A DNA stretch of 64,000 nucleotides from positions 41,702,194-41,766,193 of the forward strand of contig CP136069.1 of assembly GCA_032622095.1 (NCBI GenBank). The letters run 5' to 3'. Positions 4,737-62,336 of the stretch are shown in pieces. Source of the DNA: Siphonodentalium dalli (taxonomy: Eukaryota > Mollusca > Scaphopoda > Gadilida > Siphonodentaliidae). Position 1 is the first letter of the stretch. Each line of letters opens with the position of its first letter. The position numbers and the translations under genes are program-made. Under the pieces are notes generated by a model, which searched no databases, had not been told where the DNA came from, and worked only from the letters and a program-made list of their open reading frames with translations.

Positions 4737-6450
4737 GGACACTTTACGCATGGTGCGATAACTCAAAAATTTTCTATCTGATCGGAACCAAATGTATATG
4801 AGTTTCTCAGACCAAAATACAGATCGAGTTCAAATATGGGTTTGATCCGATTTATTTTAAAGGAGTTATGACCCTTTTTTCAAAAATAAAATTAAAAAAA
4901 CAAAATCCGATGCTAAAACCGAAGTATATTTTGTCCGATTGTGTTCATATTTGATATGTAGGTTTATGATGACATGCCCCTCATCTGTATAGTTTTTGGT
5001 ATTGATTGGTTGATCGGTTTAGAAAATAATTAACCCTTTACACACATGCTATCCAATGCAATAAGTTGAACATATTTCTTCTGATCTGCCTCATATTTCT
5101 TACCTAGGTTTTTCTTAGCATGTTCTTCGTTTGTATGGTTTTTGGTATTGTTTAATTAAACCTTTTCACTCTTATGTTTACTTAGAATTCACCCAAGCTG
5201 CTATGACTCAAAACATTTTTCATCTGATCAGCACCAAATTTGGTATATGAATTTATCACCCCTAAATACAGATCGAGTTCGAATATGGGTTTGATCCGAT
5301 ATATTTTAACAGAGTTATGACCCTTTATTTATAATTCAAGTAATTACTGCTGGGAATTTTAAGAGAACATTCTGGCAGACCATGTGTGTAATTGAAATGA
5401 GTTAATTATCACTAGGGACATGCTATAAAGCCTGATAGTGGTACTCTTGGCTGGCAGGATTTGTTATCATATTAATGTCAAATTGATTGATGGCTATCTG
5501 GTGGAGTTCTGTTTTCTGTGCAATATTAAGTTAACCCCTTTACTGAAACCGGTTCATTACTAAAGTTTATGTAAACACTATAGGACACCTATTCTAAAAT
5601 ATTAAATTGAAATAGTCCATTGTTACTTTGTAGGGATGTTTTACAGACATTGTTGTCTACATACACTGTTGTCTTATCTTAGACAAAAATTAATCCACAC
5701 ATTCCCAGTTCCATGATATGATGTCATTGCAAATGATTAACCCTCTCCACACATATGGTTTTGATGCTTTTCATTTGATCATTCTCCTATATTATGTCCA
5801 GGTTGATGGTGATCCACTTTTGATTTGCATGGATTTGGGATTAAAATTAAACCATTCCATAGACACATATTATGTGATAGACAGATATAATATTATCCAT
5901 TTCACTTTGATCCAGGTTCAGTAAGGGTTTCAATAAATCGCCAATTATATATTCATCATTAGAGGAAATGTCTTATTTTGAAATTCCCTCAATTGCATTT
6001 GGGCTCCAGGGTAATATTAATGGTGCTGGTATTCTTGAGACTGACTTATTGTATGGGTTTCTAAATCCAATGACATGCTTTGTATAGACTATTTTGTGTT
6101 TATCAGTTCATTAGTTTGGGTAAGATTAACCCTATTCTATCCGATTTGATAACTCAAATATTTCCATTGATTATGTTTATACATGTAGTTCTTGGCATAG
6201 TTGACAAGAACACACCCCTAACCTGCATAGTGAGGGTCATTTGGTTTATTTGATTAAAAATATTAACATCCTCCGCCAATCCTGTTGACACAATGTGATA
6301 ACTAAATATTTTTCACATGATCACTATATTAAGTGTGAATTGTTGAAACTTTAGCACTCGTGAAAAGGTTGATGTAAGGATTTATAAAAATAGCTAATTG
6401 CTATCGCCAAGGTATGGGTTAAACATCTGCCGATCGTGATCGGCCTCTCG
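4631..6450 (+). mobile_element. HINE/Helentron-like element, 1.82 kb
   Basis: Begins ATGTTTACCCATACCATAG and ends with the dyad GCCGATCGTGATCGGC plus CTCTCG. It is inserted in a T-run of a TTAA-1 element. It carries a GTCC/GTCT microsatellite at 4698-4735 and repeated internal blocks (GATCGAGTTCRAATATGGGT; CACACATGCTATCCAATGCA). No terminal inverted repeats or ORF. T-T insertion, a 3' hairpin and internal microsatellites fit HINE/pearl elements of invertebrates; this class is an inference. Confidence 0.6.
4698..4735 (+). repeat. GTCC/GTCT microsatellite
   Basis: GTCCGTCCGTCC followed by several GTCT units, inside the HINE-like element. Confidence 0.9.
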
Positions 6451-6588
6451 TTTCTTACATTCTTTAACAATTTTATAATTTTTAATGTGTTAAGCCAATG
6501 CATTCTCTTATATATGCGAGGCGACCTATGGTCGACTCGCATATATAAGAGAATGCATTGGCACAGGGCCCTTCTGTTGGGTGAAGGG
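6451..6588 (+). mobile_element. TTAA-1 element, right part
   Basis: TTTCTTACATTCTTTAACAA through the second hairpin core to GTTGGGTGAAGGG-TTAA (6589-6592). It continues exactly where the 4375-4630 part stops when compared with 30282-30661. Confidence 0.82.
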
Positions 6589-6985
6589 TTAACTTCAGCT
6601 GCTAAAAATTTGCATTGTGATGCTCACTGCATTGGTGGGATGCACACTGCATCAGCAGATTTTAATCACGATGTGCATCAAATAATTAACGCATGCATCG
6701 TTGTTGCCCAAGTAAATACTGGCTTTTAATGAGAACCGAGCTCAAGCTCAAAGGTAAACCACAGTCTACAGAGCATAGGAAGATCCATTTCATATAAATA
6801 TCTTGTTTTCGTCTGCTGGTCCAGATTGCATTACATGGAAAATCCACAGTTATCTGATAAAACCCAACCGAATGACTAGTTTTATCAACCAGACATGATC
6901 AGTGTCTGTTGGAAATCTCAGGGATATAGAAAAAAAACTTGTTTCTTAGCGTCTGTCAAGAAGAAAGAATGCGCGGATAAAAAAA

Positions 6986-7382
6986 GACTGCAAATAGTGT
7001 GTCTGTCATTTGCAGAATGAGGTCCCCAGGGGGTGAATTTAGTGATGCTATCCCGCACTGCGTGCTAGCATCATAAAATGTACTCTCTGGGAACTTCCTT
7101 CTGCTTAAACCTCAACTGCTATTTTAGGCTGTTGAAGCTTTATTTGGCCGGTTTGTTGGGTAAAGGGTTAAGGGATATAGAAACTTCTCAGAAGGGAAAA
7201 AGTTACTAAATACGTTGTTAACTTGAGCATATAGATATTTCCCAGAAGATGAGGCATAAGCAGAATGAGGTCCCCATAGGGTGAATTTGGCGATACTAGC
7301 CTGCTATGCGGGGTAGCATCACTAAATTCACCCTCTGGGGACCTCATTCTGTAAATGACAGACACACTACTTGCAGGTTTGA
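6986..7382. mobile_element. Pal-hAT MITE, long form, with TTAA-1 fragment inside
   Basis: GCAAATAGTGTGTCTGTCAT to ACAGACACACTACTTGCAGG with two hairpin blocks (7000-7105, 7258-7350). A TTAA-1 end (7121-7167 plus TTAA) sits in the middle where other copies read GGGAGACC. Confidence 0.7.
7121..7167 (-). mobile_element. TTAA-1 terminal fragment
   Basis: GGCTGTTGAAGCTTTATTTG...GGGTAAAGGG followed by TTAA; only one end of the element remains. Confidence 0.7.
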
Positions 7383-11250: not shown

Positions 11251-12180
11251 TTCATGGTGTAATCAACTCCTACAGTGTTGATTGTAGATATTTGAAACTT
11301 CAGAGTATTGTTACCCACATATTGGAGATGTGCAACATGTATATAGATGACAGAAACAAAAATTCTTTACAGAATTATTAACCCTTTCGACGGGAGACAC
11401 TGGTCGGCCGACCTTTTATTTTATAATAGAAAAAGCCTTTGAGAAAGGTTCTTACCATTGATCAAGCCCAATTTTCGCCTATGGTAGTACATCTTCCTAA
11501 TTTTATAAAACCAATTCTAACCTTGTAGACGTTGTCAAGTTTCCATTATTTTGAATCACAAATTTAAATAGATTATTTTCTAACCATTCATTTTTCAACT
11601 GAATATATAAGATCCCACAGATATCTCAGATATGTCCACATCAACCATTCTATATTTCTAAGGTTATTTTAAATTTGGAATTAGTTTTTTCTCTGCCCTA
11701 GAAAATTTCAGGTCTATCGCAAAATAGAAATATTTATTGCAAAAAACCTGAGACAGTCTATATGTTGTACAGAGTAAATTATATATACATAAGCATTCTT
11801 TCCACATGGGGTTCGTGAATGGGTCCTCTCCAGCCCCATATCGGAAAATCTCAGTCCATGAAACTAACTGAATATCTAGTGATTAGTAAAGGACCCCCAA
11901 ATTTAAGCCAAATAGTATCTTCATCATCAGTACATTAATTGTAAATTGTGATTTGCAAAGTAAATAGCTATTGGCAAAGTAATCACATGACCAGACATGA
12001 CCAGACATAATCAAAGGCATGTATGGCTTTCCGTGATATCGACCTCAATATGTTCCAGAATAAGATTGTTTTGTAGGATTTAATCATCGATTTTATATCC
12101 TTGAAGAACAAGGCATTTCAAATAATATTATCTTTGTTTATCACCCCACACAAAACTACACAAACCTGTAAAAAAAATAT

Positions 12181-16133: not shown

Positions 16134-16657
16134 CAGTCATGCCCTAAATAATCGACTCCTTAACCCTTTACCCAACAGAACGGCCCTGTGCCAATGCATT
16201 CTCTTATATATGCGAGTCGACCATAGGTCGCCTCGCAGATATAAGAGAATGCATTGGCTTAACACATTAAAAATTATAAAAAAAATTTAGGCCAATGCAT
16301 TCTCTTATATATGCGAGGCGACCTATGGTCGACTCTAATATATAAGAGAATGCATTGGCACAGGGCATAACTGTAACCATCACAATGTGGTCAGTGAGCC
16401 GGTTCCAATGATATCCATATTTGTATGGTTTTATTGAGACAGACCCAAGATAATTTAGGCTGTTGCAGCTTTATTTGGCCGTTTTTGGCCGGTTTGTTGG
16501 GTAAAGGGTTAACCACAGCATAATTATGGGTAATTTTTCAGAATTTAGTCGGAAATATGGCAATGAATGGTAACAAGCCATATTTCCAACTAAATCCTGA
16601 AAAATTACCCATAATTCTGCTGTGGTTAAAGAGTCAATTATTTAGGGCATTAGTATA
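16134..16657. mobile_element. Pal-TA MITE split by a TTAA-1 insertion
   Basis: Left end CAGTCATGCCC...GACTCC at 16134-16159. The host sequence resumes CCACAGCATAATTATGG at 16513 and runs to a degraded right end near 16657. The interruption is exactly at the family's internal TTAA. Confidence 0.8.
16164..16508 (-). mobile_element. TTAA-1 element nested in Pal-TA
   Basis: 345 bp, CCCTTTACCCAACAGAACGG...GTTGGGTAAAGGG, with TTAA at 16160-16163 and 16509-16512. Two hairpin cores. The spacer is shorter than in 30282-30661 (AAAATTATAAAAAAAATTTA). Confidence 0.88.
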
Positions 16658-20010: not shown

Positions 20011-20231
20011 TTAAACTGTTTGATTACACTTAATTTTCACAATGATAATGATTGTTCCTATATTCTGTTACTTGTAGAAATTCCCAATTTTAAGCCAATA
20101 TATGGCGCAATAGAAAAGGCCCAGTACCCTTTCCCAAAAAGGTAAAAAAAATTCCCTACACTAAGCTCTGCTTGCTATCCAGATGTTGCAATAAAACATT
20201 GGAATGAGCTCAAATTCAGACTTGGCTTTAA

Positions 20232-20353
20232 CCCTTTGAGTGCCAGGTCCGATTTTTGTATCAACACATATACCCTGTGCCAATGCATTCTCTTATATAT
20301 GCGAGTCGACCATAGGTTGCCTCGCATATATAAGAGAATGCATTGGCCTAACA

Positions 20354-20384
<31 letters not shown>

Positions 20385-20460
20385 ATTTATTCTTATATTC
20401 TTTAATAGACTTATTTTGTAATTTTAGGGCCGATGAGATCGGCCCCTGGCACTCAAAGGG
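20232..20460 (+). mobile_element. TTAA-2 element, single core
   Basis: 229 bp between TTAA (20228-20231, 20461-20464). CCCTTTGAGTGCCAGGTCCG, TTGTATCAACACATATACCC, one hairpin core, a 27-T run, then the dyad GGGCCGATGAGATCGGCCCC and CTGGCACTCAAAGGG. Confidence 0.85.
20354..20380 (+). repeat. Poly-T tract
   Basis: 27 T within the TTAA-2 spacer; other copies have an interrupted T/A-rich spacer here. Confidence 0.9.
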
Positions 20461-20469
20461 TTAACCTAA

Positions 20470-22600: not shown

Positions 22601-22804
22601 AAATGTCGGACTGTTTGTTCACATTTTTGCATAATTCAGATGTAATGTTTTACGAAAGGGTACAGTCCTTGTTGTGAATTTTCTGACAATCATAAATTAA
22701 TGATACATTCTTCAAATGGGTGTAGTGTCTGAGTTTTAAAATATTAGTTTGAATTGGTGAAGTAAGCACATAATATGTCGTTAATTCTAAAGATGTACAT
22801 TGTG

Positions 22805-23243
22805 ATGAACCTGTTATGGGGCTTTACGAAAACCCTGTGCCAATGCATTCTCTTATATATGCGAGTCGACCATATATATATAGTAGGTCGCCTCGCATAT
22901 ATAAGAGATTGCATTGGCCTACCCAATTGTTAAAGAATTTAAAAACAAATTTAAAAAATAAAAACAAATTGTTAAAGAAAGTAAGAAATAATGATGAAAA
23001 AATGATAAAAATTGTTGAAGAATGTTAGAAAAAATGATAAAAATTGATAAAGAATGTAAGAAAAAAGGATAAAAATTGTTAAAGAATGTTAAGAAAAATT
23101 GATAAAAAAAATGATAAGAATTTGTTAGGCTTATGCATTCTCTTATATATGCGAGGCGACCTATAGTCGAATCGCATATATAAGAGAATGCATTGGCACA
23201 GGGTCTTTAATGCTGCACTAGTGCAGCTCCCGCCATGAAAGGG
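22805..23243. mobile_element. Hybrid: TTAA-3 ends with TTAA-1-type cores
   Basis: The right end is TTAA-3 (TTTAATGCTGCACTAGTGCA, CCATGAAAGGG, TTAA 23244-23247) and the left is a degraded GGGGCTTTACGAAAACCCTG. The two hairpins have the GTCGACC/GGTCGCC loops of TTAA-1. The spacer is expanded to about 210 bp of repeated AAAAATTGTTAAAGAATG. The first loop also has an inserted TATATATA tract. Confidence 0.75.
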
Positions 23244-24037: not shown

Positions 24038-24198
24038 AAATCTTATTTTTGAGCTATGTTTATGCACAGATAATAGTCATGAGTGTAGACATTTTGTTTG
24101 AATATACTTTGTTCTTATGATCTATTATACAAACAAAACAAATTTGATATGTCAAACTATTAATATTTGATGAACGGGAGTGTTAATAATCACTTTAA

Positions 24199-24433
24199 TC
24201 CTTTCAGTGCCAAGTCAGATTTTTGTATCAACCCATATTTCCGTGATCATTTTTCAAATTTATTGATTATAATAATGTGATACATTGATGGAAAGAGCTC
24301 TAATGTGATACATTGATGGAAAGAGCTCTAAGAGCTCTTTCCATCAATGTATCACATTATTATAATCAATAAATTTGAAAAATGATCAAGGAAATAAGGG
24401 TTGATACAAAAATCGGACTTGGCACTGAAAGGA
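24199..24433. mobile_element. TTAA-2 termini with a different palindromic core
   Basis: 235 bp between TTAA (24195-24198, 24434-24437). Both ends match TTAA-2 (CCTTTCAGTGCCAAGTC; TTGTATCAACCCATAT and inverses). The interior is an unrelated perfect palindrome of arms such as GATACATTGATGGAAAGAGC, with one arm partly duplicated. It contains no GCCAATGCATTCTC core. Confidence 0.85.
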
Positions 24434-24502
24434 TTAAGTGCATAGAGCGAAACTATTTTAACAATGCCATTTATTAGAAGTTTTCTTTAAGTGCAAAATT
24501 AA

Positions 24503-30281: not shown

Positions 30282-30661
30282 CCCTTTACCCAACAAACCG
30301 GCCAAAACCGGCCAAATAAAGCTTCAACAGCCTAAAATATCTTCGGTCTGTCTCAATAGAACCATACAAATATGGATATCGTTGGAACCGGCTCCTTGAC
30401 CACATTGTGATGGTTACAGTTATGCCCTGTGCCAATGCATTCTCTTATATATGCGAGTCGACCATAGATCGCCTCGCATATATAAGAGAATGCATTGGCC
30501 TAAAAAAACACTTTTTACCATTTTTTCTTACATTCTTTAACAATTTTATAATTTTTAATGTGTTAAGCCAATGCATTCTCTTATATATGCGAGGCGACCT
30601 ATGGTCGACTCGCATATATAAGAGAATGCATTGGCACAGGGCCCTTCTGTTGGGTAAAGGG
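30282..30661 (+). mobile_element. TTAA-1 element, full length
   Basis: 380 bp between TTAA (30278-30281, 30662-30665). One end is CCCTTTACCCAACAAACCGG with a roughly 140-bp unique arm, then two inverted hairpin cores separated by an A/T-rich spacer (CATTCTTTAACAATTTTATA). Confidence 0.88.
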
Positions 30662-40349: not shown

Positions 40350-40741
40350 CCCTTTACCCAACAGAAGGGCCCTGTGCCAATGCATTCTCTTATATATGCG
40401 AGTCGACCATAGGTCGCCTCGCATATATAAGAGAATGCATTGGCTTAACACATTAAAAATTATAAAATTGTTAAAGAATGTAAGAAAAAATGGTAAAAAG
40501 TGTTAAAAAAAGTATTTTTTTAGGCCAATGCATTCTCTTATATATGCGAGGCGACCTATGGTCGACTCGCATATATAAGAGAATGCATTGGCACAGGGCA
40601 TAACTGTAACTATCACAATGTGGTCAAGGAGCCGGTTCCAATGATATCCATATTTGTATGGTTCTATTGAGACAGACCGAAGATATTTTAGGCTGTTGAA
40701 GCTTTATTTGGCCGGTTTTGGCCGGTTTGTTGGGTAAAGGG
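40350..40741 (-). mobile_element. TTAA-1 element, full length
   Basis: 392 bp between TTAA (40346-40349, 40742-40745), reversed relative to 30282-30661. Right end GGCCGGTTTGTTGGGTAAAG; two intact hairpin cores. Confidence 0.88.
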
Positions 40742-41224: not shown

Positions 41225-41785
41225 CAGCTCTGGCAATAAAGTAGAAATGAGAGTCATTGTGGACAGAGATAAGTGAGTGGCAATCATCATAAAGATACAG
41301 ATGGGGAAACTACAGACACCATTCCCAATATTCAACCATAAAATACCATGGGTGGTTTACCTGTCTCCTAAAAAAAACTTTAGATCACTGGCTGGCTTAT
41401 GATAGTTCACGAAGACCGTGGTAATTATTCCCCGGAATTTATACCCTGAATTATTATATAAAATATATACTAATCTTAGCTATCCTTTACCCAGAATTTA
41501 GCACTATCTCTTGATCCACATTTACCAACATTTTATATATAAGAGATTGAAACTATAGGCCATAATAAATATAGAATAGTCTTTCATCCAACTTTTTTTT
41601 TATCCCCGATTAAATTGGGACAGGTGAGCGAATTTTATTTGTATTTTTTGGCAGCATAAATAGCCATAATCAATGATGGCAATTGAGGCATATAGTAAGC
41701 TAATTTATATTATATCTGGTGATTTGATACTGCCCAAATTGATCAAATTTGAGGGTCTAATGAGTCATTGCAATGTGCTTATTAA

Positions 41786-42034
41786 CCCTTTGAGTGCCAG
41801 GTCTGATTTTTGTATCAACCCATATACCCTGTGCCAATGCATTATCTTATATATGCGAGTCGACCATAGGTCGCCTCGCATATATAAGAGAATGCATTGG
41901 CCTAACAATTTTTTTTTATTTTTTTATTTTTTTTATACAATTTTTTACAATTTTAATATATTTTATTATATTCTTTAACAGACTTATTGTGTAGGTTTAG
42001 GGCCGATAATATCGGCCCCTGGCACTCAAAAGGG
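41786..42034 (+). mobile_element. TTAA-2 element, single core
   Basis: 249 bp between TTAA (41782-41785, 42035-42038). CCCTTTGAGTGCCAGGTCTG, one hairpin core, a T-rich spacer, GGGCCGATAATATCGGCCCC, CTGGCACTC. Confidence 0.85.
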
Positions 42035-42643
42035 TTAAGTTAACTCTTTCAACACCGCAGCCCGTAATTATGTTCATTTTCACCACTGCAGCTGGCGCTA
42101 GCTGGCAGAACTTAAATTTTGGGAATAATACAATTTTTACAGGGATATAAATGTACAAATGAATTTATTGGTTAGCGACTTAGATATCCTTTGGTTGATA
42201 TTCTATATCATTACTAATTTATTGGTGGGTACGCAGATCTAACATGAGCGGCCATAAAGAGGTGTTCCTGGCCTAAATGTAGATAGCACCTGTATGACAT
42301 CACAATTACTATTTTGGGGTTTACTAAAAGACATTGACGAAACACTGCTGACTGACGATTATGTTGACCTTTCTAACAATGTTTTATTTGTGGCATCCGT
42401 CTATTGTCTCCTATATTCCATGCAATGTTACGAAAATCACCTTACCACAACGGTGCCCATTCAATAACAATAGCTGCAGGTGCATGTTATAAGCATGAAA
42501 TTGACATGCGTACACATTGTGGGAACCGGATGAGGACATTGGCAGTTGTTGTAGTTGGAAAGTTACTCATAATTCATCAGCATAATCCTAAATGCGGGAA
42601 AAATGTCTATTTTGGTCAAATAATGTCTTTTTGTGCATATTAA

Positions 42644-42883
42644 CCCTTTGAGTGCCAGGGGCCGATCTCATCGGCCCTAAACCTACAAAATAAGTCTGTT
42701 AAAGAATATAAGAATAAATTATTAAAATTGTAAAAAAAAAAATAAAAAAAAAATAAATAAATTGTTAGGCCAATGCATTCTCTTATATATGCGAGGCAAC
42801 CTATGGTCGACTCGCATATATAAGAGAATGCATTGGCACAGGGTATATGGGTTGATACAAAAATCGACCTGGCAGTCAAAGGG
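42644..42883 (-). mobile_element. TTAA-2 element, opposite orientation
   Basis: 240 bp between TTAA (42640-42643, 42884-42887). CCCTTTGAGTGCCAGGGGCC at the left, ATCGACCTGGCAGTCAAAGG at the right. It lies 600 bp from the copy at 41786 in inverted orientation, so the pair could form a larger foldback. Confidence 0.85.
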
Positions 42884-43739
42884 TTAAGGTTCTCATCATC
42901 ATGCTCATAGCACACCTGCTAATTACATTCCTAATCATCACTTATACTGAAACTATTTGACAGTAAGTTTGTTCCATACTTTTGTGGTGAAATATTGTAA
43001 ATCAAATAAACAGTTATTTATTGAGTTCAACCCTATTTTATGTTACCTACCATATCTCTAAATAGTAGTATGAAAACCCTACATCTGAGATGCAGAATAT
43101 ATACTGCTGTAAACCCAGTATGATGACCAATGTACCTCCGTAAATTTGGTGGTGACAGAGTTAAAGGCATTCAATTTTTTTTTTACATCAAACCTATCCC
43201 CTATCCATGGTATGAGGGGTGGGGGCAACATTAGGGTCCCCGGAGGGGATCAGAATCGAGCAATTGTTTTATATTGGCCTAAACCACATTTTTGGTGTCA
43301 TTAATAAATCACTCCTGGAGTCATTGTTGGGTGAGATAAGTCAGGACCAATCACCATTAAGTTGGGATGAAGCATCTACAGAGACAGTATACATCTGTTT
43401 AGTGCCCAATCAAACCAACAATATTTATATGTTCACAGACCTACAGGCACCTGGGAAGTTCCCCTCCACCCCCCCCCCACCCATATATACAGGGACCTTC
43501 CTATGTTATACCCCCCTCCTCCCCTCAGAGCAGGGATGAAGTAATTACATGGCCATAGTGATTAATTACAATTACAATGCATATTGTCAATTAAATTACA
43601 TCGAAAACTCAAAAGTAATTCATTACAATCACTTTTCAATTCCATTAGGGGTAAAAACAAGAGTTGGAATCACTACATACATGTAATGGTGATTGATAAT
43701 AATCTTGGTGTTAATGCTGAAATTGAAAATGAAAAAAAA

Positions 43740-53298: not shown

Positions 53299-53691
53299 CC
53301 CTTTACCCAACAAACCGGCCAAAACCGGCCAAATAAAGCTTCAACAGCCTAAAATATCTTCGGTCTGTCTCAATAGAACCATACAAATATGGATATCATT
53401 GGAACCGGCTCCTTGGCCACATTGTGATAGTTACAGTTAGCCCTGTGCCAATGCATTCTCTTATATATGCGAGTCGACCATAGGTCGCCTCGCATATATA
53501 AGAGAATGCATTGGCCTAAAAAAAACCCCTTTTTTTAACACTTTTTACCATTTTTTCTTACATTCTTTAACAATTTTATAATTTTTAATGTGTTAAGCCA
53601 ATGCATTCTCTTATATATGCGAGGCGACCTATGGTCGACTCGCATATATAAGAGAATGCATTGGCACAGGGCATAACTGTTGGGTAAAGGG
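53299..53691 (+). mobile_element. TTAA-1 element, full length
   Basis: 393 bp between TTAA (53295-53298, 53692-53695), CCCTTTACCCAACAAACCGG to ACTGTTGGGTAAAGGG; two hairpin cores. Confidence 0.88.
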
Positions 53692-58040: not shown

Positions 58041-58740
58041 CAGGGTAGGGTCCTGCGAATATTCGATTCGAGATTCGATTCGAAAGTCAAATTCGATTCG
58101 AAATTGCCAACTCGAAATTTTGAATATACACTGATGGAAAAGTAGGCTGTTTACGGGCATGTACACACGTCGATATTAGCTGTTTTGTGCCATTTAATTA
58201 CAGAAAATGATGTATATATGTACCTTATAATTCTCATTGTAAATCGCGATTTTATATATTAAATATAAGTATAGACATCAATTAGCCACTATAGGACAAC
58301 TAAATACGTCTGATTTCTATCTTTGAACATGGTCCCCAAAAGATCGGAGATCGCCGATGGACCAACGACGCTCGTAAATTATAATAGCTATGAGACTGAT
58401 CAACCGCTAGCGTTATCCGCGGTCTATCCGTCTCAGATTCCGCGTTATGTAATATAGTTCAGAATTTAAACAACACGTGTTCCCGGCATCGAAAACTGCA
58501 TGTTGGCGGTGTTTTCTTTTGAAGTTTACTTTCAATTTCGGAGCGTTCTTTGACACTAATGTCTTGACAAAACGTCATCCGTTATTCATGTTTATTTTAA
58601 ACATGATAAAGCTGCAGGCTTACCCATGTGATGAATGCAATATGGTGTATAAATCGCAATCATCTGGGACAACGACCCATCTATGGAATCATCTGTCCAA
58701 GAAGCATCCAGCACTACATAAACAGGCTAAACTGTGATTG
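58041..58740 (+). mobile_element. hAT-like transposon 5' fragment with BED finger
   Basis: Starts CAGGGTAGGG, a hAT-type CAGGG terminus, followed by repeated ATTCGATTCGA words at 58060-58100 as in many invertebrate hAT ends. About 550 bp further on is a BED-type zinc finger: CDECNMVYKSQSSG, then THLWNHLSKKHP, giving the Cx2C...H...H pattern around residues 50-77 of an 86-codon frame (58477-58737). A gctgcag before the finger could be a splice acceptor. The frame stops at 58738 and no hATC dimerisation region follows, so only the 5' end survives. No 3' terminus was found. Confidence 0.65.
58609..58740 (+). pseudogene. BED zinc finger remnant of a hAT transposase
   Basis: DNA-binding N-terminal domain of a hAT-family transposase (or ZBED-type derivative). 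Two Cys (CDEC) and the His of HLWNHLSKKHP are intact, and the frame ends HKQAKL-stop. Normal hAT proteins continue for 500 or more residues, so this is truncated. The start is uncertain: an upstream Met at 58477 exists but the stretch before the finger resembles no protein I know. Confidence 0.6.
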
Positions 58741-60122: not shown

Positions 60123-62336
60123 TCATAAAATAACAACTTCTAGCAACGTAGTTCTTACACAGATAAACAGATATCTGACTGATAATCCCAGCTTTGTAGG
60201 TTTCAAATAGTGTATGATAGGCAAACCCCTGTCTTGGGTTAATTCTTCAACCATAACACGTTTTTGACGAGTGATGACTTTTGATATAGGTGTAAGCAGG
60301 GTGTCGTCCTTTTGAGTTGAAACTGCGATTATCCCCATACCATGAAATGAACCTCTACCATCAATAGTAGTGATGTTGTGGTCGACGTTAAATTATCTGC
60401 TGCCTACTGAGTAAAGGTACCTGAAAAATACTCCACTAGTGTACTCTCAATACTTTCCACCTGGATCACTGATTGCTTGTACCTGCTTACTTCGTCATAA
60501 GTAATTGAAAACCCCAATTTAGAGTTCATAACTTACACTTCTTCTTCTCTACGCCCGTGTACGAGCAACCTCAATATGAGTATTATAATAATCATCACCT
60601 TCCAATTTAGTGAGTTTATATACAGTAGTTGATCTAAAAATACTAATTGACATTTTGTTGCTGTGTATATGACTGGGAACTGTGTTGTAGTTTCATAGAA
60701 TTCTTTTGATCTTTCATAAGTAACAGTTATTGTACCTCTCGATATGTAAGCCACCTTGACCAGAACACGAGATCCATTTCAACCCCAATACCAAAAAGGG
60801 TAGTGGTAATAACAGATTGTTTTATTTCAGATGGAACTAGTATCTGCAGAAACATTTGTAAATGGCGAGGAATCCATTTATTTCTGTTGTCTATATTCCC
60901 TATCTCCTCGCTGGTGGGGTAGGTTTTCTTATCATATGTCATTTCCCACAACTTTGCCCTGATCATCTTCGCGGCGGTCACAATAACTCTGTCTGCCTCC
61001 TCCTCTGTGTCATCTTTCTTATCCGCATACCACTTGTCATTTATCGAGTACTTGGCCATATCTTTGAAACAAATGTCGTTGCTATGCCCTTCGATTTCAG
61101 CAAAAAAGATACACTCCCCATACCGTTCTTCCAATTTCTGTTTAAGGCGTTTTATTAAATTAAGATTCTGACCCAATTGCTAGCTCTACCATTTGAGTAT
61201 GTAACTCGGACAGAGTATACAGTTCTGTATTGATCACCCCAGACTCCAGCCATACACATAACGAATCAAATGAGCGTTGCATTTCGACACTTGGTGTTCT
61301 GTCCTTTGGTTTTCTCTCAGATGGATCCTCATTTATATCTCCCAATATCATGGCGAAACAAGATGCATCATATAGGGCTTCTGCAGTAACGAGATCAATG
61401 CAACTTAATTAGAGTGAGTCTCTGAACCTTCAATGCTCACGAATCTTCTCTTATTCGGCAATGTTCTAAAACTTTGTATCTAATAGGGAGAGTTGCTATA
61501 CTGTTCGCACTTGCCTTCTACCGGGATGACGGTGATCTGATATGGCACCCTTTCCACATATGAAACAGTCTTCTTTGACATCAAATGGGTCTTGTCTATA
61601 TCTCCGAGGGAGTCATTTTCTTAGAGATTGGAACCATATCCATACACTCCGGATTGACATTGAAGGTTCTTTTCCTATCAGTGAAATCACGCCTACAGTC
61701 TTTATGGACCAATACCTTACCAATGGGTGTGGTTATTTGTTGCCCCTTTAACCCTTTACCCAACAGAAGGGCCCTGTGCCAATGCATTCTCTTATATATG
61801 CGAGTCGACCATAGGTCGCCTCGCATATATAAGAGAATGCATTGGCTTAACACATTAAAAATTATAAAATTGTTAAAGAATGTAAGCAAAAATGGTAAAA
61901 AGTGTTAAAAAAAGATTTTTTTTAGGCCAATGCATTCTCTTATATATGCGAGGCGACATATGGTCGACTCGCATATATAAGAGAATGCATTGGCACAGGG
62001 TATAACTGTAACTATCACAATGTGGTCAAGGAGCCGGTTCCAATGATATCCATATTTGTATGGTTTTATTGAGACAGACCGAAGATATTTTAGGCTGTTG
62101 AAGCTTTATTTGGCCGGTTTTGGCCGGTTTGTTGGGTAAAGGGTTAAATATTCAGATAAGTGGTTATATCCTCGCTTATCAGAGAAGTCAATCAAAGTCT
62201 CCAATCCTTTTTCCATAACTTTTACCAATGTATTTCCCTTAGTGTCCACATTACATTGACACATGCTACGAAAGGAAAAGACGGACACGTCCTCTTGAAA
62301 GTTGCTGGCCCCAACATACGACGTTGGTTCTGCCAT
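60123..62336 (-). pseudogene. Decayed multicopy invertebrate protein gene (unnamed family)
   Basis: Minus-strand remains of one long protein, read in order. N-terminal block at 62336-62148 (MAEPTSYVGAS... to HLSEYL). A TTAA-1 element at 61752-62143. The continuation with VLVHKDCRRDFTDRKR at 61747-61596. After a frameshift, a zinc-ligand-like DCFICGKG block near 61600-61540. TAEALYDASCFA leading into 61351-61160 (FDSLCVWLESGV, LYTLSELH). After another frameshift, 149 codons at 61176-60727 (RLKQKLEERYGE, NDKWYADKKDD, GIGVEMDLVFWSRWL). Finally FTQ-stop-AADN, a 1-nt shift, then NVDHNITTIDGRGSFHGMGII in 60392-60123. At least four frameshifts and several stops make it non-functional. I recall intact relatives with this motif order as high-copy uncharacterised proteins in cnidarian and mollusc genomes. 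They are probably repeat-encoded; I cannot name a domain or function. Confidence 0.75.
61752..62143 (-). mobile_element. TTAA-1 element inside the pseudogene
   Basis: 392 bp between TTAA (61748-61751, 62144-62147), CCCTTTACCCAACAGAAGGG to GTTTGTTGGGTAAAGGG. It interrupts the minus-strand protein between codons SEYL and KGQQ. Dropping it with one TTAA leaves the frame open, so the insertion was precise and post-dates the coding copy. Confidence 0.92.

Follow-up and report, generated by a model that had tools for sequence, protein, structure and literature searches.

Palindromic MITEs with two L ends and a hairpin module common to TTAA- and TA-bounded termini

Introduction

Do the ends and the interiors of miniature transposons assort independently, or do they travel together? 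This question is raised by the element at 24195-24437 of the window (the whole 64-kb stretch of DNA analysed here, situated on contig C9 of a genome of 2.23 Gb in 9 contigs), both ends of which resemble the L end of hairpin-bearing TTAA-2 elements in the same window. In the initial annotation, foldback modules were thought to be exchanged between or inserted into piggyBac-like ends. The names A, T1 (TTAA-1), T2 (TTAA-2), T3 (TTAA-3), T4, and T6 are labels coined in the present analysis, and the features of the window are compiled in Table 1.

Table 1. Coordinates of the MITE features in the window.
Feature	Position	Strand	Remarks
Mosaic: TTAAACATCTGCCGATCGTGATCGGCC end (T4-type) with TTAA-1 spacer, hairpin, and TTAA-1 end	6419..6592	.	
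Double-hairpin module (CCCTGT ... ACAGGG) within TTAA-1	16184..16365	.	
TTAA-2 element	20228..20464	+	L end followed by hairpin, AT-rich stretch, and an R end containing a palindrome of 19 bp
Hairpin of 69 bp within TTAA-2	20279..20347	+	
Double-hairpin module	22833..23203	.	right end TTAA-3
Family A element, L/L palindromic MITE, TTAA-bounded	24195..24437	.	243 bp (215 bp in the canonical copy)
Left arm, complete L end	24195..24301	+	107 nt
Central 28-nt direct repeat, inner end of the arm copied again	24273..24328 (24273-24300, 24301-24328)	.	
Right arm, second L end inverted	24331..24437	-	107 nt, 97% complementary
Double-hairpin module within TTAA-1	30425..30641	.	
Double-hairpin module within TTAA-1	40370..40598	.	
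TTAA-2 element, L/R	41782..42038	+	hairpin inside
Hairpin of 69 bp within TTAA-2	41833..41901	+	
TTAA-2 element, L/R	42640..42887	-	hairpin inside, R end on left
Hairpin of 69 bp within TTAA-2	42769..42837	-	
Double-hairpin module within TTAA-1	53441..53671	.	
Double-hairpin module within TTAA-1	61772..62000	.	

A palindromic element composed of two L ends

In case of the element at 24195-24437, the palindrome comprises the whole element including its ends and no distinct core is left, hence it is an L/L element. The unrelated palindrome formerly described as taking the place of a core does not exist as a separate unit. TTAA is present at the start and at the end, and the element is short and occurs in many copies, as expected of a piggyBac-derived MITE. 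Both of its ends are of the L type; two different ends (L and R) are a requirement in piggyBat that is not known to define every member of this group. Folding of the element as single-stranded DNA yields -114.2 kcal/mol with a z-score of -28.5.

The inner junction 35-mer of this element is found at 7,170 exact genome places (control 0), and the element is one of thousands of small copies in which a single transposon end is set against its own copy. A unique chimera or an assembly error at this site, the objection anticipated in the initial annotation, is ruled out by these genome-wide counts. For the shared sequences as a whole, assembly error or chance resemblance has a negligible probability in view of thousands of exact copies, reversed-pattern controls of zero, and best matches of family A on all nine contigs.

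For this palindromic family, 40 places were scored among 1,516 candidates in the genome search, both strands being reported as the element is palindromic. The canonical copy (L017) is self-complementary at 212 of its 215 bases. In family A copies with both arms traceable without gaps, including the window copy, extra length is located in the centre and often represents a re-copied arm; in the other copies, an indel in an arm halts the ungapped comparison. Of 21 copies compared (20 fetched copies and the window copy), 15 have TTAA at either end; these 21 are the best-scoring ones, so that complete copies are over-represented.

L and R ends of TTAA-2 and its relatives

Both ends of the element at 24195-24437 agree at 39-40 of 44 bases with the TTAA-2 L ends at 20228 and 41782. 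The L end at 42887 differs from the family A ends by a one-base gap and matches them at 25-26 of 44 bases if aligned ungapped. The R ends at 20464 and 42640, to which the R-end comparison refers (the end 42033_right was left out), agree with the family A ends at the tip (16 of 18 bases) and then at only 22-24 of 44 bases. As the A ends match the L end but the R end only at its tip, TTAA-2 is an L/R element and the element at 24195-24437 an L/L element. The similarity of about 40 bp on each side that had been annotated for the two elements thus holds true for the L ends, whereas it is restricted to a tip of about 18 bp for the R ends.

A palindrome starting 18-21 bases from the tip occurs in the R-type ends of TTAA-2, TTAA-3, L021, L022, and L135 (one end each) and in both ends of L023. 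In the autonomous relatives L021, L022, L135, and L023, it has a size of 16-23 bp and lies just inside the end; in the T4 end, it is situated closer to the tip. Bases 5-50 of the TTAA-2 L end, the TTAA-3 L end, and the A arm contain no palindrome. Since no such palindrome was observed in the TTAA-1 ends examined, and those in both ends of L025 are weak, with arms of 6 bp, the rule of an R-type palindrome is not valid for every family. In T. ni piggyBac, a 19-bp palindrome in both ends is bound by the cysteine-rich domains of the transposase, according to the available part of PMC11707139. By analogy, we presume that the R-type palindrome would fill this role here.

Linkage of interiors and second ends

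The 21-letter pattern of the TTAA-2 L end occurs at 22,760 exact genome places (control 0). For the linkage sample, 40 places from the top of the list were retrieved, and 39 of them were usable (L077 was left out); they originate from the start of contig C1 among the matches listed and include duplicated copies (L041/L042, L051/L053/L054, and L074/L075). With an A interior, a second inverted L end follows within 330 bases in 10 of 13 cases and was not seen in three. With the hairpin, a T2-type R end follows within 590 bases in 19 of 25 cases and was not seen in six, two of which carry a third core. A single row has neither the A interior nor the hairpin. Crossed cases, i.e., an A interior with a T2-type R end or a hairpin with a second L end, were not observed among the 39 ends, the R ends sought being exclusively of T2 type; in L020, which is not part of the sample, the A arm is combined with a different R-type end.

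The same terminus type is indeed able to carry more than one interior, as annotated initially. Linkage of the interior to the second end without crossed combinations (10 A interiors in L/L, 19 hairpins in L/R, and 0 crossed) counts against an independent assortment of cores and ends, and this part of the initial proposal is not supported. Among 100 L-end junctions from the matches listed, 68 lead into the hairpin, 30 into the A arm, and 2 into other sequences (counted by hand and overlapping with the first sample), and the hairpin and A-arm classes each have one joining position on the L end. L-end haplotypes are distributed as follows: CA with 10 A interiors and 4 hairpins, CG with 8 hairpins, and GG with 11 hairpins and 1 other interior, while 5 rows are outside this pattern. 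To account for these haplotypes, it would suffice that the hairpin was acquired once, on the CA background.

Two further arrangements were noticed on contig C1. At G000:C1:820-921 kb, a tandem array with a spacing of ~11.2 kb contains one TTAA-2 L end per unit. The regions at ~1.73-1.83 Mb and 3.55-3.67 Mb of G000:C1 have the same MITE contexts in reversed order, a pattern like that of an inverted duplication or of a duplicated haplotype.

The hairpin module and its boundary

Matches to the hairpin 14-mer with at most 2 mismatches amount to 71 in the window, compared to 0.43 expected and a maximum of 2 in 100 shuffles, and the arm of the GCCAATGCATTCTC hairpin occurs as 270,242 exact 27-mers genome-wide. 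The hairpin is found within the three terminus types TTAA-1, TTAA-2, and TTAA-3, in agreement with the initial annotation, and elsewhere in the genome also within a fourth, mostly TA-bounded type (T6). With 33 exact arms per 64 kb, hairpin density of the window is high compared to the genome mean of ~7.8 per 64 kb.

In TTAA-1 and in some TTAA-3 copies, the module is arranged as CCCTGT, hairpin, AT-rich spacer, hairpin, and ACAGGG, with the two hairpins facing each other; TTAA-2 retains one hairpin only. The sequence CCCTGTGCCAATGC, with any base except A at the position 21 upstream, was found at 58,358 exact places, a count that leaves out most TTAA-2 copies, and the junction of TTAA-2 to the hairpin alone at 11,906 exact places. 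Terminus patterns gave 46,923 (T1), 18,935 (T6), 13,676 (T3 L), and 27,188 (T2 L) places. Patterns starting or ending with B omit places with an A at this position, so that the respective counts are lower bounds. Controls were 0 except for T2 (76), the fixed part of which is short. About the first 100 places per pattern were listed, all of them on contig C1 and with tandem and duplicated copies among them. T6 is flanked by TA in 15 of 22 cases, as expected of a TA-target MITE, and by AA, TT, and TG in 4, 2, and 1 cases, respectively. Thus the module is not confined to TTAA elements but extends to TA elements.

Distinct modules collected in the window and at the loci number 106, 87 of them with and 19 without an assigned terminus. 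Upstream of CCCTGT, the consensuses of six termini have an identity of 0.30 across 20 bases (mean of the shuffles 0.26; this value is reached in 41 of 1,000). Downstream of this boundary, identity amounts to 0.99 across the first 27 bases. These rows were selected by CCCTGTGCC, which favours the CCCTGT boundary and misses junctions elsewhere. Outer arms in the window, chosen by the hairpin 14-mer alone, have an exact CCCTGT in 22 of 33 cases, and most others are near variants as judged by eye. An exception is given by L124 with a direct join at GCCAATGC. The annotated occurrence of one hairpin module across unrelated termini is therefore sustained, mostly with a common boundary at CCCTGT.

A single ancestral core with ends that diverged or decayed later is very improbable. 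An AT-rich spacer next to the hairpin is common to TTAA-1 and TTAA-2 by eye, as this scenario would predict, but upstream identity falls near background at a single base, the target types differ (TTAA versus TA), and family A has the L end in common but not the hairpin.

It is a possible, if doubtful, alternative that the double-hairpin module was itself a mobile MITE with CCCTGT/ACAGGG ends and a TA target, which jumped into several families and then spread inside them. The sharp boundary is consistent with such a history, as is the TA preceding CCCTGT in 26 of 26 TTAA-2 rows, 23 of 24 T6 rows, and 10 of the 19 rows without an assigned terminus; moreover, L105 has TA on either side of the module and no known terminus around it. 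In the TTAA-1 and TTAA-3 contexts, however, TA was found in only 1 of 37 rows, the consensus being GG, TG, AA, or GA. Six of the 10 TA rows without a terminus have a T-rich run like that of T6, and may represent breakpoints in T6 copies. In addition, a T6 arm pair without module (exact pattern, at most 14 bases between the arms) was found at one place only and was dismissed as a pre-insertion state, and the choice of rows by CCCTGTGCC leaves out junctions situated elsewhere.

L118 was rejected as a fresh module insertion, since its right side is lost and the target duplication is unreadable. The rare junction TATCAACCCATATTTCCCCG was rejected as a parental left end: L117 lacks a TTAA tip at the expected position, and no ORF of more than 123 aa is present in 3 kb.

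Two T6 elements on contig C1 contain additional sequences. L122 (G000:C1:4495850-4497850) has an insert of ~1.3 kb with GGC-rich inverted repeats in its hairpin loop; an ORF of this insert (702-1130, + strand, 142 aa) matches Bcl-2 of Pfam (E 9.1e-11, 42.6 bits, cut-off 31.4), which points to a possible host-gene capture within a hairpin MITE. In L130 (G000:C1:7685350-7686150), the T6 end is interrupted by another repeat with a copy of TAAGT on each side.

Mosaics and module tree

Apart from the mosaic in the window (Table 1), composite elements were observed at several loci. L119 has a TTAA-1 tip, an exact T6 end, and then the interior and right side of TTAA-1. L020 combines the A arm with a TTAAACATCTGCCGATC-type (T4-type) end, and in L057 and L058 the TTAA-2 L end is joined to a CAGACGACACTC core. 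TTAA-3 L ends are joined either to the hairpin or to another core, GGGAGCCCCATACAG. These mosaics show that switching happens, most of them being single cases in the samples taken. At L126 (G000:C1:9264600-9265350), a TTAA-3 left end with the second core GGGAGCCCCATACAG forms a head-to-tail array of ~107-bp units.

The tree of the 106 modules, based on 110 columns, has 97 inner branches, 5 of which are strongly supported. Changes of the terminus label number 40 if the unassigned rows are treated as a group (minimum 6, shuffled mean 66.7) and 22 without these rows, and two sets of identical modules occur in more than one terminus group. Due to the poor resolution of this tree, the number of captures or exchanges cannot be counted.

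A free and repeated exchange of foldback cores among piggyBac-like ends, as conceived initially, could explain the mosaics, the two cores at TTAA-3 L ends, the label changes, the identical modules across groups, and the presence of the hairpin in at least four terminus types. We regard it as improbable nevertheless, because interior and second end are linked around the TTAA-2 L end, the haplotypes are compatible with one hairpin acquisition, both main junction classes have a single joining position among the 100 junctions from the matches listed, and the resolution of the tree is too low for exchanges to be counted.

Autonomous piggyBac relatives

PiggyBac transposases are abundant, with 128 PF13843 matches, 116 of 649 candidates scored, and many open frames of ~600 residues. 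Autonomous-looking copies with TTAA-2-like TIRs are L021 (TTAACACGTTGAGTGCC, 4,264 bp) and L022 (TTAACTCATTCAGTGCC, 5,177 bp), the TIRs of which have the same form as those of TTAA-2 and A; L135 has TTAACACGTTGACTGCC at 2,537 bp. TIR pairs at such loci refer to TTAA pairs visible within the fetched stretch. One end of the piggyBac locus L036 differs from the TTAA-1 tip by 1 mismatch in 18, and L033 possesses a CCGGCC-rich end resembling the other end of TTAA-1, but second ends were found for neither L036 nor L033. Transposase identity is 35% between L021 and L022 and 50% between L033 and L036.

The exact TTAA-2/A ends (TTAACCCTTTCAGTGCCARGTCC) were found on no autonomous element among the 25 transposase loci fetched (20 and 5). 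The search for a transposase with each terminus, suggested along with the initial annotation, yielded related TIRs and, in case of L036, an end close to the TTAA-1 tip, but not these exact ends among the 25 loci. L027 was rejected as a hairpin-flanked autonomous parent: after extension of the locus (L081), the hairpins turned out to belong to separate small neighbouring elements, and the end matches of L081 are adjacent MITEs.

Proposed origin

With a probability of roughly 70%, family A is a fold-back L/L palindrome spread by a transposase supplied from elsewhere, TTAA-2 is its sister family, and the hairpin was captured in few founder events. Family A would then be an abundant non-autonomous piggyBac-like family in which an L end of ~105 bp is paired with its own copy in inverse orientation. 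During copying of the L end, the polymerase probably folded back or switched strand, whereby the interior and the R end were deleted; it is the shape of the element that suggests this origin. The TTAA-bounded palindrome would subsequently have spread by cut-and-paste, using a piggyBac-type transposase of other elements. In piggyBat, LE/LE and RE/RE constructs are inactive according to the available part of PMC11707139, so that unaided mobility of an L/L element would not be expected.

TTAA-2 would be the sister family that kept the L and R ends and carries the hairpin module. This module was presumably captured by several terminus types in few founder events, either through template switching in gap or fork repair or through nesting, in this case of a TA-target module. 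Each new combination of module and terminus may then have been amplified by transposases, a step for which the TTAA and TA ends and the copy number argue.

It is tempting to speculate, as a tentative and rather unlikely extension, that mobilisation has brought L/L elements without R-type palindrome to thousands of copies and that the hairpin is a MITE parasite which passes between TTAA and TA families and rides on each of them. Both features are absent from the piggyBac-type systems in the cited papers and may be natural here. The genome represents a very large natural record of miniature-transposon building, with exact junctions in thousands to tens of thousands of copies and open piggyBac reading frames beside them in the same genome. 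Two questions can therefore be put to the test, namely whether transposases of piggyBac type are able to mobilise elements whose ends are the same, and whether hairpins are switch points that pass interior modules between transposon families.

Comparison with known systems

Like MITEs of the piggyBac superfamily, family A has TTAA at both ends and a TIR similar in form to those of the autonomous piggyBac loci of this genome; in contrast to them, both of its ends are L ends, and the R-type palindrome is missing. TTAA-2 and TTAA-3 resemble the autonomous piggyBac relatives in that an R-type palindrome lies inside one end. The L/L family deserves the greatest interest because, in the available part of PMC11707139, LE/LE donors of piggyBat are inactive and both ends are needed. 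Symmetrised piggyBat ends are reported there to be active with an extra C-terminal domain. Among open-access papers, judged by title and the start of the abstract, none was recognised on abundant L/L piggyBac MITEs or on a hairpin core common to TTAA and TA MITEs.

The initial statement that no described family behaves in this way was too strong, since composite P MITEs and Gambol MITEs have been published (PMC1562414, PMC3212995). Identical ends with different interiors as well as composite ends are on record in the accessible parts of PMC1562414, PMC3212995, PMC8277862, and PMC6887750. As far as the available text of PMC1562414 goes, AgaP2-P12MITE of Anopheles gambiae is a composite P MITE whose two ends derive from different P subfamilies, the interiors of P MITEs are without significant identity to the master, and ectopic gap repair and macrotransposition were proposed for them. 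Copy numbers range there from 5 to 310, whereas the module described here occurs in at least four termini and in tens of thousands of exact junctions. Gambol MITE-like clusters of A. gambiae have nearly identical TIRs and different internal regions, and a core common to different TIRs is not seen in the available part of PMC3212995, while the hairpin is shared here. No closer parallel is given by the Blepharisma MITEs in the accessible part of PMC9942856.

MER6 with a SINE V domain represents a core of foreign origin amplified within a MITE; the combination is a Mariner-derived MITE with a SINE domain in the part of PMC6887750 available to us, and with a hairpin in the present case. In a known template-switch system, multicopy chimeras arose by later transposition as here, with captured gene sequence instead of MITE modules. 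Composite MITEs are thus already described, and the elements of this genome are a vivid instance of known processes and not a new kind of element. Unusual are their scale, the crossover between TTAA and TA elements, and the abundance of L/L piggyBac-like elements.
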